Made by a program: the position numbers and the translations under genes. A stretch of DNA of 54,866 nt, taken from assembly GCA_015485495.1 (NCBI GenBank), contig WFTL01000153.1, positions 1-54,866 of the forward strand, given 5' to 3'. This DNA comes from Planctomycetaceae bacterium (lineage in GTDB: Bacteria; Planctomycetota; Planctomycetia; Planctomycetales; Planctomycetaceae). The notes under the pieces are model-generated. The model was not told where the DNA came from. It did not search any database and saw only the letters and a program-made list of their open reading frames with translations. This document shows positions 20,046-47,787 of the stretch, piece by piece (the stretch's first letter is position 1; each line of letters opens with the position of its first letter).

Positions 20046-20116
20046 GCGGCTGTGGTGTAATGGTAACACGCCAGCTTCCCAAGCTTGAAACGCGGGTTCG
20101 ATTCCCGTCAGCCGCT
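20046..20116 (+). tRNA. tRNA-Gly (anticodon CCC)
   Basis: This 71-nt cloverleaf has a perfect 7-bp acceptor stem (GCGGCTG with CAGCCGC), a discriminator T, and a D arm GTGT/ACAC with the loop AATGGTA. The anticodon stem-loop is CCAGC-TTCCCAA-GCTTG with anticodon CCC, followed by a 4-nt variable loop. The T arm is GCGGG-TTCGATT-CCCGT. The 3' CCA is not encoded. The anticodon stem contains one C-U mismatch at the second pair (28-42), which is unusual but tolerable. It reads GGG codons, frequent in GC-rich genomes. Confidence 0.93.
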
Positions 20117-44778: not shown

Positions 44779-45267
44779 CTATTTTTTCCCCAGAGCCCGC
44801 TGCTTCCGAAAGAATTCCTGAAGAATGTCGCGGCAGTCATCCTGCATGACACCGCCCAGAACGGCCGCCTGGTGGTTGAGCCGGATGTCGCCCGTGATGT
44901 GAAACAGCGAATCACAGGCTCCGGCCTTCGGATCGGCCGTTCCGTACACGACGAACGGGATGCGCGCCTGCACGATGGCCCCGGCACACATCGGACACGG
45001 TTCCAGAGTGACATACAGCGTGCAGTCGCACAGCCGCCAGGACCCCAGCGCTTCGGCCGCCTGTGTGATGGCGATCATTTCCGCGTGCGCAGTGGGATCG
45101 TTGAGTGCTTCCCGCTGATTGTGTGCTTCCGCAATCACCTCATCGCGGTGCACGACCACCGCACCCACCGGAACTTCATCCTGCTCAAAGGCCTCCACGG
45201 CCTGATCCAGAGCACGCCGCATCCAGTGATCGTGCGGATGGAGCGGATCAGAACACGGCAGACTCAC
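44779..45267 (-). CDS. tadA: tRNA-specific adenosine deaminase TadA
   Basis: This protein of about 162 residues has the cytidine/deoxycytidylate deaminase zinc site: H61-A-E63 (TAHAEM) with catalytic Glu63, and PCPMC (C91, C94). It converts A34 to inosine in tRNA-Arg(ACG). [23 protein letters not shown], a [14 protein letters not shown] loop and [24 protein letters not shown] match TadA throughout. The start is uncertain: GTG 45267 gives a leader ending HPHDHW before the first helix, as in relatives, while ATG 45222 would drop 15 residues. The frame remains open upstream without family similarity. Confidence 0.9.
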
Positions 45268-45549
45268 GGGAATCTCAGTTGGACAGATGAATGCGTGAAC
45301 AGTGCGGGCTTCCGGAAGCACGGAGACGACCTCCAGGAACCGGCGATCATAACGCCCGCATTGTAAGAATTTCACGGCCGGGCGGTTGTAGAAACTGCAA
45401 ACGGTCCCCCCGACAGTGCCCTCCTGGTGGCTGCTGCCGAAACAGGAAAATTCCTGCAGATCCCCGTTCAGCAGCAAAAACACTGGAAAGCTGACTGTCG
45501 GAGAAGGGAGGCCGCCGGGGCAGGCGAAAGATTCCGGTGTCATTGGCAT

Positions 45550-45786
45550 CCGGCTTGCGGAAGACGGCCGGTGAGAGAGAGACCTGCCCGGAGTGAGATC
45601 CCGGGCCTGCTGGCGTGAGAAACCAGCACGGCCGCCTGCAGGTGCGGCCAACTGAGAGAGACGGCGGTCCGCGTGAGAAACGGACCCGACTCCATGTGGG
45701 GCAGCCGGCCTGAGAAACCGGCTGACCTCGGCGTGAGAAGAAAAAGGCCGATCGGACTCCGTCCGGTCGGCCCTTTTTCATTTTTT
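45550..45786 (+). ncRNA. Structured RNA with repeated UGAGA hairpin loops
   Basis: A run of hairpins on the + strand shows a strikingly repeated loop. Stems 45586-45591/45601-45606, 45608-45613/45623-45628, 45666-45671/45681-45686 and 45702-45708/45718-45724 each close a 9-nt loop: AGTGAGATC, CGTGAGAAA, CGTGAGAAA and CCTGAGAAA. Two more stems (45550-45571 and 45630-45649) are followed by unpaired TGAGAGAGA, and a further TGAGAAGAAA precedes an intrinsic terminator. In the two CGTGAGAAA loops, C-GUGA-G can also fold as a GNRA-type tetraloop with an AAA bulge. No coding frame explains this pattern. The 5' end is unknown. The RNA resembles a protein-sequestering sponge in design, but its class is not recognised. 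Confidence 0.7.
45741..45786 (+). terminator. Intrinsic terminator of the UGAGA-hairpin RNA
   Basis: A 12-bp stem (45746-45757 with 45761-45772, one G-U pair) with a 3-nt loop is followed by C, five T, CA and six T. Five A precede the stem and can pair with the first T-run. This is a strong rho-independent terminator on the + strand. No CDS lies upstream on that strand for over a kilobase, so it most likely ends a non-coding transcript. Confidence 0.85.
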
Positions 45787-46599
45787 ACCGAACGTCGGCG
45801 AAAAGAACGACACCGGAAGAACACCGGTCGCCCACCGCCGCGTGCCTGCGCCGCTGCCGCATCAGCGTCGCTCCGCTCCTGGATCCGACCGACAGGATGG
45901 AGTTCGCCGTGCGCATCCTGTGATCGCTGCTGTCTGCCCCTGCTGCTTCGGCTGCTGTCTTCTGAGTGTCCGCCGATTCGTCGCCTGCAGAAACAGCCGC
46001 ATCGGTCGACACGGCATCGGTCAGCAGAACCGCTCCGGGGCGAAACATGGGCCGTGTGAGAAAGCGGGCCGTGTGAACGGTCATGACGCTGCCGGTCTGC
46101 AGCGTGCAGAACCCGTTCTGTCTGTGTTCGGGCACCGGGTTTCTCGGTGCTCCGACACCGGGTTCCGGCACCGGTCCGCCGACCGGCTTCGGCAGAAACT
46201 GCCGCTGTGTCCGGCGAAAACCGTCCGGCAGAAGAACGATTCGGCGGCAAATCCGAACTTCGACTCAAGAGTCGGCAACCGCTCTTGACCCGTTTCCGGA
46301 AGTTGCAGTACATCACGCTCCGACGCGACACGGATCCCGGCAGATTCAGCCGTCCGGCGTGTTGAACCGTTCACTTCCTCCGCTCGACCCACTCCACGTC
46401 GGGCACTCTGACATCTCATCTGATCACTCCTGTCACTCTCAACCTTTCTACCGGATCCGAATTCTCCGCACCCTTCGAGACGCACCTCGAACCTGACCGC
46501 GGCAGGATTCCTTTCGGTCTTCTCTCCTGATTTCCGCTGAGCTGTCGGTCTGCGCCGGCGGCTGCGCGGTCAGGAAGGTCCTTTCAGGGAAGAAAATCC
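45787..46599. other. 813-bp gene-free region upstream of the secreted repeat protein
   Basis: No convincing ORF. It contains copy A of a dispersed repeat (45841-45918), a short inverted repeat CAAGAG...CTCTTG near 46265-46290, and direct repeats of ACCGGGTT around 46135-46175. A minus-strand frame here (start near 46084) overlaps the repeat and is not called. The last 60 bp carry AGGGAAGAAAATCC before the ATG at 46600. Confidence 0.4.
45841..45918 (+). repeat. Dispersed repeat copy A
   Basis: This segment aligns with 51121-51203: 44 of the first 50 bases are identical, and after a small length difference both share a 3' arm (GGATG-AGTTC-CCGTGCGCAT with variable positions). The core GCGTCGCTCCGCTCCTGG is identical in the two copies. 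It is non-coding in this position. Confidence 0.7.
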
Positions 46600-47787
46600 A
46601 TGTTGCCACGACAGACGTTTCGTGCCGCTCTGGCAGCGGCCGCTGTTCTCAGCTTGTCACCGGCAAACGCCCAGTTCTACAACAACGGCTGTTCTTCATG
46701 CGGCCCGGTCACCGCTCCGGCAGCAGCCTGTGTCCCCATCCAGCCGGTGCAGGCGGCGTGTTACCAGACGGTTCCCGTGACCACCTACCAGCGGGAAAAA
46801 CAGACCGTCCGGGAACCGTATTACAAGACGGAATATGAAGACCGCGAAGTGACCGTGATGCGTCCGGTCACGGTGCAGCGGGAAATCGAAGTTCCCACAA
46901 TCAGCTACCGCAACGTCACGGAATACCGCACGGTCCAGCGCGACATGGGACGCTGGGTGACGCGGTACATCCCCGTCCAGAAAGCGTCCGCCTGTCAGGT
47001 GGATTCCCGACCCGGCCTGATCGGGTGGCTGAACCGCACGGGCTATTCTTTTCGCACGGCGTTCATGCCCAACTACTACACGTCCCGCCAGTACGTCCCC
47101 CGCATGATGGCCTGCACGGTTCCTGTCACCCGCCAGGTGGCCGTTCGGGGCACCCGCCGCGTCACGGTGGCAGAAACCCGCATGGTCGCAGAAAAACGCC
47201 GGGAACGCGTGGCGGTGCAGAAGCTCGCCTGGCGGGAACGGGTGGTCAGTGTTCTGAAGCCGCAGGTGGCCTACCGCACCGTGCCGATCGGAACCCAGAC
47301 CGCTTACAGCTATGGATTCGGCTATGGAACAGCCGCCGCGTTCGCTCCGACCATCATCGACAGCCGCACAGCGCTGAATCCGGAACCGGATCCCATCAGC
47401 AGTGCCCGGGCGGACGACGAAGACGAACGCGGCATGTTTCCGGACGACCGGGAACCGTCGCGGCGGGCGGAAAGCCCGACTCCGTTCCGCGGATCCGGCC
47501 ACACTCGGGAACTGGAACCGGCTGACGATGATGATTTTCTTCTGGAACCGCAGGCACGCCGCCGGACGCCGGAAACGGACCTCATCGTGCCGGCGGTCTA
47601 CAGCCGGCCGGTCGAACGGTCCACGACCGAACGGTCCACGACTGAACGGTCCACGACCGAACGGTCCACGACCGAACGCCCCGCGAGCGGCTGGAAACGA
47701 ACCACTCGAAAAACCGTGATGCGCAGCAGCCGTGCCGACGCACCCGCTGCGTCTCAGGTGGCCCTCACGCAGCCGTCAGAGGACTGA
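46600..47787 (+). CDS. Secreted repeat-rich planctomycete protein, function unknown
   Basis: This 395-residue protein has a clear signal peptide (cleavage after SPANAQ, about residue 25). The mature N-terminus has five Cys within about 30 residues. A Tyr/Val/Arg-rich stretch of short degenerate repeats follows (about 55-235), of the form TVxxEYRTVQR, VTVMRPVTVQREIEVP and VPVTRQVAVRGTRRVTVAETRMV, reminiscent of cell-surface coat-like proteins. The C-terminal part is acidic and then Pro/Arg-rich, containing four RSTTE units (about 339-358) encoded by perfect-to-near-perfect 15-bp DNA repeats. It is probably an envelope or extracellular structural protein. It stands alone, with an intrinsic terminator 116 bp after its stop. 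Confidence 0.72.
   Translation: MLPRQTFRAALAAAAVLSLSPANAQFYNNGCSSCGPVTAPAAACVPIQPVQAACYQTVPVTTYQREKQTVREPYYKTEYEDREVTVMRPVTVQREIEVPTISYRNVTEYRTVQRDMGRWVTRYIPVQKASACQVDSRPGLIGWLNRTGYSFRTAFMPNYYTSRQYVPRMMACTVPVTRQVAVRGTRRVTVAETRMVAEKRRERVAVQKLAWRERVVSVLKPQVAYRTVPIGTQTAYSYGFGYGTAAAFAPTIIDSRTALNPEPDPISSARADDEDERGMFPDDREPSRRAESPTPFRGSGHTRELEPADDDDFLLEPQARRRTPETDLIVPAVYSRPVERSTTERSTTERSTTERSTTERPASGWKRTTRKTVMRSSRADAPAASQVALTQPSED
47613..47672 (+). repeat. Four tandem 15-bp repeats inside the secreted protein gene
   Basis: Four consecutive copies of CGAACGGTCCACGAC (the third starts with T) encode RSTTE units, with a partial fifth copy. Near-identity at the DNA level suggests recent slippage expansion and probable length variation among strains. 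Confidence 0.85.

Follow-up and report, generated by a model that had tools for sequence, protein, structure and literature searches.

On the forward strand of the window (the whole stretch of DNA analysed, 54,866 nucleotides) there is a predicted small RNA, preceded by a promoter motif and by putative activator sites and closed by an intrinsic terminator (Table 1). The neighbouring tadA-like deaminase gene, whose true start probably lies near 45290, is on the reverse strand. A sequence-only reading of this DNA had placed the RNA downstream of tadA; the gene runs the other way, which puts the RNA upstream of it. The next large forward-strand ORF (46600-47787) encodes a protein with ERSTT repeats and no Pfam match. 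The feature had originally been drawn at 45550-45786. Its repeats, hairpins and terminator stand, but the 5′ part is the promoter motif at 45543-45558, and we have therefore moved the start of the predicted RNA to about 45570. This start is placed 12 nt after the C of the -12 element and the end, at 45778, is the first T-run.

Table 1. Features of the locus, in order of position.
Feature	Position	Strand	Remarks
tadA-like deaminase gene	44779-45366	-	Divergent neighbour, outside the RNA; Pfam deaminase matches
Tandem activator (UAS) sites TTGTAAGAATTTCAC and TTGTAGAAACTGCAA	45361-45375 and 45386-45400	+	10-bp linker; predicted
Sigma-54-type promoter motif TTGGCATCCGGCTTGC (GG-N10-GC, -24/-12)	45543-45558	+	
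Predicted small RNA	45570-45778	+	Model matches in 29 genomes, own included; covariation
5′ purine run GUGAGAGAGAGA	45571-45582	+	
Hairpin H1, loop AGUGAGAUC	45586-45606	+	Outer helix least well aligned across genera (73.9% paired)
Hairpin H2, loop CGUGAGAAA	45608-45628	+	Covarying stem, 93.7% paired (helix 3)
Hairpin H3, without the motif	45630-45649	+	Shorter or absent in many other members
UGAGAGAGAC between hairpins	45653-45662	+	
Hairpin H4, loop CGUGAGAAA	45666-45686	+	Best-kept hairpin, 97.5% paired (helix 4)
Hairpin H5, loop CCUGAGAAA	45702-45724	+	Lost in some members, e.g. L026, L033, L035, L037
Seventh UGAGA, before the terminator	45734-45738	+	Seen in the three congeners alone
Intrinsic terminator (A-run, GC hairpin, T-run)	45741-45786	+	Helix 5, 92.9% paired

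All seven UGAGA copies on the forward strand were re-found exactly where they had been reported, at 45572, 45594, 45616, 45653, 45674, 45711 and 45734, with spacings of 22, 22, 37, 21, 37 and 23. Four of them (45594, 45616, 45674 and 45711) are indeed found in 9-nt loops, each closed by a perfect stem of 6-7 pairs, and the seventh directly precedes the terminator. The forward strand of the window holds 33 TGAGA, seven of them inside 170 nt; in 300 first-order Markov sequences the largest cluster was 4 and the mean 2.3. Counted on both strands of the whole window, TGAGA falls short of the chance expectation (64 observed versus 104.5 expected), hence the cluster is a local one. A search for 9-nt xxTGAGAxx loops closed by five or more perfect pairs gave four hairpins on the forward strand of the window and none on the reverse strand; simulated forward strands averaged 0.06 (n = 100). 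The fold of 45480-45800 (321 nt) has z = -3.74. An eighth TGAGA, at 46057 within GGGCCGTGTGAGAAAGCGGGCC (46049-46070), lies in a weak hairpin about 270 nt beyond the terminator.

Among 59 genomes, BLAST detected the element in three, the source genome and two congeners, with a tadA motif near each and a single locus in the source genome. Run against 170 genomes from the same GTDB family, a covariance model built from these three (R1) matched 39 at E <= 1. We fetched 30 R1 loci, a count that leaves out ten further matches with E of 0.12-0.89; 27 are members (L012-L037, L039) and three (L038, L040, L041) were dropped, since a correctly formed promoter motif is missing from each and TGAGA occurs 0, 1 and 0 times, respectively, around the match. 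Score alone does not separate the two groups: the dropped loci have E of 0.01, 0.045 and 0.14 in the 170 genomes (0.00015-0.0017 in a smaller search), level with the members L037 and L039 at 0.009 and 0.013. A second model, R2, covers the predicted start through H4 and leaves out the promoter. Over 397 genomes of the class it matched 43 at E <= 0.1 and added L148 (G071) and L149 (G147), together with a divergent form, L168 (G120). The covariance modelling of relatives that had been proposed as a check has thus returned 29 members, our own locus included, in five genera (g1, g6, g54, g55, g73) of one GTDB family. A search with the activator-site pattern added L320 (G150), which brings the main family to 30 loci, with L168 counted apart. 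A scan of named contigs for promoter plus motif gave 73 stretches, 14 of them labelled Fuerstiella, Planctomycetaceae or Planctomycetota; 58 of the 73, from many other groups, were left unread, and about 35 chance matches are estimated. By comparison of these sequences, the RNA family is real.

In the alignment of 27 members (A5) the named structure is paired in 90.5% of cells, 17 of its 35 pairs change on both sides, and no shuffle out of 500 equalled the real alignment in any of the five measures. The tested structure was derived from the same alignment, which favours it; when the pairing partner is slid by 1-3 columns, only 24-56% is paired. What RNAalifold retains at default settings is limited to H2, H4 and some of the terminator (16 pairs, 12 double changes), and single-sequence folds put 71 of 127 UGAGA copies in hairpin loops. 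Among 99 TGAG hairpins scored, the loop is exactly nine nucleotides in 60; these read C/A, C/T/G, UGAGA, A/T/G, A/C and are closed by G-C (39) or C-G (21). TGAG was the search key and is constant by construction; loop size and flanks are free of the key. An earlier suggestion that the loops could be read as GNRA-capped stems was rejected: of the 60 loops, 41 have C before UGAGA, 10 have T and just nine have G. GAGA is found in the first 20 nt of all 27 members and GAGAGA in 22. Member lengths range from 173 to 235 nt, with indels that are not in threes. The view that this is an RNA under selection, with conserved loops on variable stems, is therefore supported by the covariation and loop conservation of 27 members. 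The assignment to the forward strand, with an intrinsic terminator, holds as well, as the promoter motif, the UAS and the polarity of the T-run all point that way; the two congeners also have a strong T-run on the forward side.

The strongest mechanistic clue is the control region, with its sigma-54 motif and activator sites. Just 5′ of the RNA, [TC]GG[CT]A-N7-[TG]GC is found in 27 of the 30 fetched R1 loci, which are all 27 members, the other three having been judged non-members partly for want of it (the TGAGA series is missing there too). The search pattern fixes the GG, A and GC, and the free columns agree too: position 7 is T or C in 27/27 and position 13 is T in 24/27. A like motif has a background of 0.0115 per 250 nt. 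All 29 model-found members have both the promoter motif and the UAS, the latter 117-147 bp before the former. The UAS consists of tandem TTGTAA-N3-TTACAA-like sites with a linker of mostly 10 bp, about 20 in some loci. When 38 loci were scored, 36 had the tandem UAS 116-147 bp before the promoter and two (L170, L204) were without it.

The UAS pattern was drawn from these same loci and the independent test is therefore its rarity. It has a single match in the source genome. All of 11 RNA-bearing genomes have it at the RNA locus, and one of them (G067) at another place too; the reversed pattern has two matches. Over the 170 genomes of the family, 41 were matched (55 rows, palindromic double counts included), against nine for the reversed control. 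It is matched at the RNA in 30 of 30 member genomes, nowhere else in 25 of them, and also beyond the RNA locus in G067, G075, G145, G153 and G155. We read all 16 UAS loci away from a model-found RNA: six (L314, L316-L320) have a sigma-54 motif 116-122 bp downstream, and in ten (L315, L321-L329) neither a sigma-54 motif at that distance nor an RNA was seen. The gene for sigma-54 itself, rpoN, has a single match in 20 of 21 genomes tested, our own included, and no match in the remaining one (G185). A comparison of enhancer proteins across G000, G068, G160 and G078 did not identify the activator. The best-conserved candidate, the protein of the L230 group, was set aside because it is present in 28 of 28 genomes whether or not the RNA was detected and is therefore non-discriminating.

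Related RNAs are predicted beyond the main family as well. We read 13 of the 27 R2 matches outside it (the 14 left out include every match outside the GTDB family) and 16 of the 34 new matches, mostly the best-scoring, to a single-hairpin model, R3 (the 18 left out have E of 0.6-1.9). Both models are free of the promoter, and a strict TGGCA[CT]-N6-TGC lies within 250 nt upstream of 11 of the 29 loci read (L158, L159, L163-L167, L169, L170, L204, L209). By chance about 0.17 of the 29 would be expected, from 0.0058 per 250 nt; the 11 loci are not independent and represent some four RNA types. Two others have variant forms, CGGCAC in L168 and TGGTAC, farther off, in L205, and 16 have neither form. 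Type B comprises L158, L159, L169, L209 and L205, the last two placed by loose alignment, type C L163-L166 and type D L167 and L170; L204 is a short form in genus g5. The second R2 match in the source genome (L160, E 0.0012) and L162 were rejected as RNA loci, because long open frames span the match and the strict promoter motif is missing.

The five type B loci (L158, L159, L169, L205 and L209, in G144, G160, G158, G067 and G120, respectively) have sigma-54-like motifs before the RNA, GTTGTGACG near its start and, in four of the five, GCGAGAGAGGGAG later. In G160 the distance from the RNA to an enhancer-protein gene (C110:2914-3414) is about 5.4 kb. The type C hairpin reads GGCCCG-CCUGAGAAA-CGGGCC in L163-L165, and its counterpart in L317-L319 is GGCCCG-AGGGAGA-CGGGCC; in L166 the stem has GACCCG in place of GGCCCG. 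In these type C-like loci (L314, L317-L319, L163-L166) the hairpin is followed by a C-rich stretch and then a GC hairpin, and the C-rich stretch could pair with Shine-Dalgarno regions. The pairing probability of the motif hairpin is high in L318 (0.97-1.0), L163 (0.91-0.93), L316 (GACCCGTCTGGAGAACGGGTC, 0.9) and L319 (0.85-0.88), about 0.8 in L164 and about 0.67 in L165, weak in L314 (0.32) and L166 (0.17), and next to nil in L317 (0.02). L168 carries CCGGAGAAA, and L170 has UGAGA (UGUGAGA) and GGAGA loops within one RNA. The constant element looks like [U/G]GAGA, on a hairpin that is unsure in three loci. It is possible that GGAGA/GGGAGA hairpins follow sigma-54 motifs in other genera, as the UAS search suggests. 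In four g73 genomes (L201, L202, L203, L161) a further CCUGAGAAA hairpin runs across the stop codon of an HTH and receiver-like gene. Its stem changes partly keep the pairing; as the proteins are nearly identical, it may be a by-product of coding.

To our knowledge, no regulatory sRNA of this sort has been characterised in the planctomycetes, a phylum with unusual cell biology. That the RNA belongs to no known class is supported by Rfam: the window and 14 relative loci gave only tRNAs at gathering score, and the sole such match in the window is a tRNA gene at 20046-20116. CsrB/RsmZ-type models gave no gathering-score match in the window, and the best match of a permissive search at the element region has E 0.79. 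A limited open-access literature search, which does not imply absence from print, found no such RNA. The RNA family is new to Rfam and has a distinctive control region.

The RNA may work like CrcZ or CsrB while being a member of neither family. In CsrB, a series of hairpins repeats a single purine motif in its loops. The likeness to CsrB/CsrC and RsmX/Y/Z lies in the tandem hairpins, the repeated loop motif and the intrinsic terminator, together with the presence of CsrA in the genome. In contrast to those RNAs, which are under BarA/UvrY-type control, ours has a sigma-54 motif, UGAGA loops without GGA and no Rfam match. GlmY is not known to have a repeated loop motif, and differs in this and in the lack of an Rfam match here. 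That said, GlmY of E. coli has a sigma-54 promoter, is activated by QseF and sequesters RapZ (PMC7073468, in the part consulted); sigma-54 promoter, response-regulator activation and protein titration are shared features, as far as they are proposed here. According to excerpts of PMC8395346, CrcZ of Pseudomonas is driven by RpoN and the response regulator CbrB and sequesters Hfq, and RsmY/Z sequester RsmA. CrcZ/CrcY and our RNA have in common an RpoN promoter, upstream activator sites (here sequence motifs only) and several protein-binding motifs per RNA; the difference is that CrcZ combines A-rich motifs with Hfq/Crc, whereas our RNA carries [U/G]GAGA, in a genome without an Hfq match. The same excerpts describe NrsZ of Pseudomonas, an NtrB/C- and RpoN-dependent RNA of about 226 nt that appears to interact with the rhlA leader. 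It is set beside ours by description only. Rhodopirellula-1 is a candidate RNA motif from Proteobacteria and Planctomycetes, mentioned without an Rfam accession in the relevant passage of PMC2864571, the main text of which does not contain UGAGA.

Which protein might bind such an RNA? GGA is the canonical CsrA determinant. Our RNA has three GGA and one ANGGA in all, and its four 9-nt UGAGA loops contain no GGA; the AGGGAGA of sister-genus loci contains ANGGA, in a similar hairpin. An Hfq sponge was rejected, since the source genome, the one genome tested, has no match to PF17209 (five control genomes matched). The same genome has six CsrA matches (PF02599) above the cut-off (L006-L011), and the one that was compared with solved structures matches CsrA entries. 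Three of the six (L009-L011) have the diverged C-termini VREE, LRKE and LRGE instead of VHREE or VHRRE. The csrA gene of L011 (G000:C130:10999-11136) has a sigma-54-like TGGCACACCGATCGC 98 nt before its start, which, with CGC at its end, does not fit the strict pattern; TTGTA/TTACAA-like half-sites precede it. No match to TGG[CT]A-N7-[TGC]GC was found within 400 nt upstream of the other five csrA genes, L010 and L007 having looser motifs only (TGGTGCAGAAGTTGC and CGGCATCCGGACTGC). In the portion of PMC12316311 used here, csrA is described as enriched for sigma-54 promoters in the Planctomycetia, with Pirellula strain 1 cited there.

The RNA family, its structure, the promoter motif, the UAS and the terminator are established at the level of sequence and comparison. 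The explanation that we prefer, with a confidence slightly above even, is titration of a [U/G]GAGA-binding protein, perhaps a CsrA paralog, by a sigma-54-activated, trans-acting sRNA. An enhancer-binding protein would bind the tandem TTGTAA-N3-TTACAA-like sites at 45361-45400 and contact sigma-54 RNA polymerase at 45543-45558, switching on an RNA (45570-45778) that would be released as a free trans-acting sRNA. This RNA would display many [U/G]GAGA copies, some in the 9-nt loops of hairpins, others within GAGAGAGA stretches; with so many copies of one element it would bind several copies of an RNA-binding protein and draw the protein off its mRNA targets. In this scheme we infer transcription, start site, activation, protein binding, titration and the identity of the partner. 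A decoy function is the likeliest reading and is a prediction; many like sites on separate hairpins are the decoy architecture given for CrcZ and RsmY/Z in the excerpts of PMC8395346. A CsrA-family paralog is probably the best single candidate for the partner, given the lack of an Hfq match, the six CsrA, the ANGGA within AGGGAGA and the link between csrA and sigma-54. Counting against a sponge, types C and D and L204 have one to three motif hairpins only and therefore fit it less well. Also on the negative side are the lack of GGA in the UGAGA loops, the two loci short of the strict tandem UAS (L170, L204) and the ten of 16 UAS loci at which no RNA was seen. The weak hairpins of L314, L317 and L166 leave the explanation as it is, because it was built on the main family.

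The main competitor, which we regard as unlikely, is that the RNA is a sigma-54-dependent base-pairing sRNA whose loops are seeds for UCUCA or UUUCUCAGG sites in several mRNA targets. Unpaired loops that vary little (UGAG being the search key) would suit such seeds, and the C-rich stretch before the terminator of types C and D could, by eye, pair with Shine-Dalgarno regions. The RpoN-dependent NrsZ is thought to act on a leader (excerpts of PMC8395346). Yet similar hairpins carry UGAGA in some RNAs and GGAGA/GGGAGA in others, so the pairing partners would have to change; the common 9-nt loop size (60 of 99 hairpins) is not needed for pairing, and the source genome has no Hfq match. A tentative reading, to which we give a somewhat better chance, is a sponge for a CsrA paralog that has drifted from GGA to UGAGA/GGAGA. 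This is a special case of the titration explanation and does not add to it. It draws on the six CsrA without an Hfq match in the source genome, on the ANGGA within AGGGAGA of sister-genus loci, on CCGGAGAAA in L168 and the GGAGA loop beside UGUGAGA in L170, and on the sigma-54 link of csrA (the L011 motif and the cited part of PMC12316311); the absence of GGA from the main-family UGAGA loops and the uncertain hairpins of L314 and L317 speak against it.

Two further possibilities are far less probable. A leader or attenuator of the forward-strand gene at 46600 or, read on the reverse strand, of tadA is suggested by the position of the element between these genes and is disfavoured by polarity and by the terminator, which ends the element about 820 nt before 46600. 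The promoter motif, UAS and T-run polarity favour the forward strand, and only 15 of the 27 member loci, a set in which some flanks are short, have a tadA-type motif; we consider a leader very improbable. An artefact of repeats or of coding seems hardly credible: several ORFs do overlap the element on both strands, but the stems covary, the lengths of 173-235 nt differ by indels that are not in threes, BLAST finds one locus in the source genome, and the second R2 match there (L160) lies in long open frames without the strict sigma-54 motif.

A bolder version of the titration explanation, which we put forward with considerable reserve, is a hitherto undescribed, family-wide post-transcriptional switch in the Planctomycetaceae. 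One dedicated enhancer protein, together with sigma-54, would fire fast-evolving decoys, in which the [U/G]GAGA loop is the only constant. The protein titrated by these would be a CsrA paralog, or else a new RNA-binding protein, and its recognition would have moved between GGA and UGAGA among genera. If this were true, the shift would be a natural record of a change in RNA-protein specificity. Likewise, should the partner prove to be a CsrA paralog, joint changes in the specificity of a global regulator and its decoy would be visible in the UGAGA/GGAGA/GGGAGA series. Comparison alone gives the RNA class, the promoter motif, nearly private activator sites and the loop alphabet, and with these laid out the partner could be fished with a defined 21-nt hairpin.

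Finally, a second tandem TTGTAA-type site is found directly 5′ of an apparently thioredoxin-like gene in three g73 genomes (L321, L322 and L323, in G145, G155 and G153, respectively). In L321 and L322 a looser TGGCATGGAAGCCGC can be read about 11 bp past the UAS, at the start of this gene. The thioredoxin-like gene is a possible second target of the activator.
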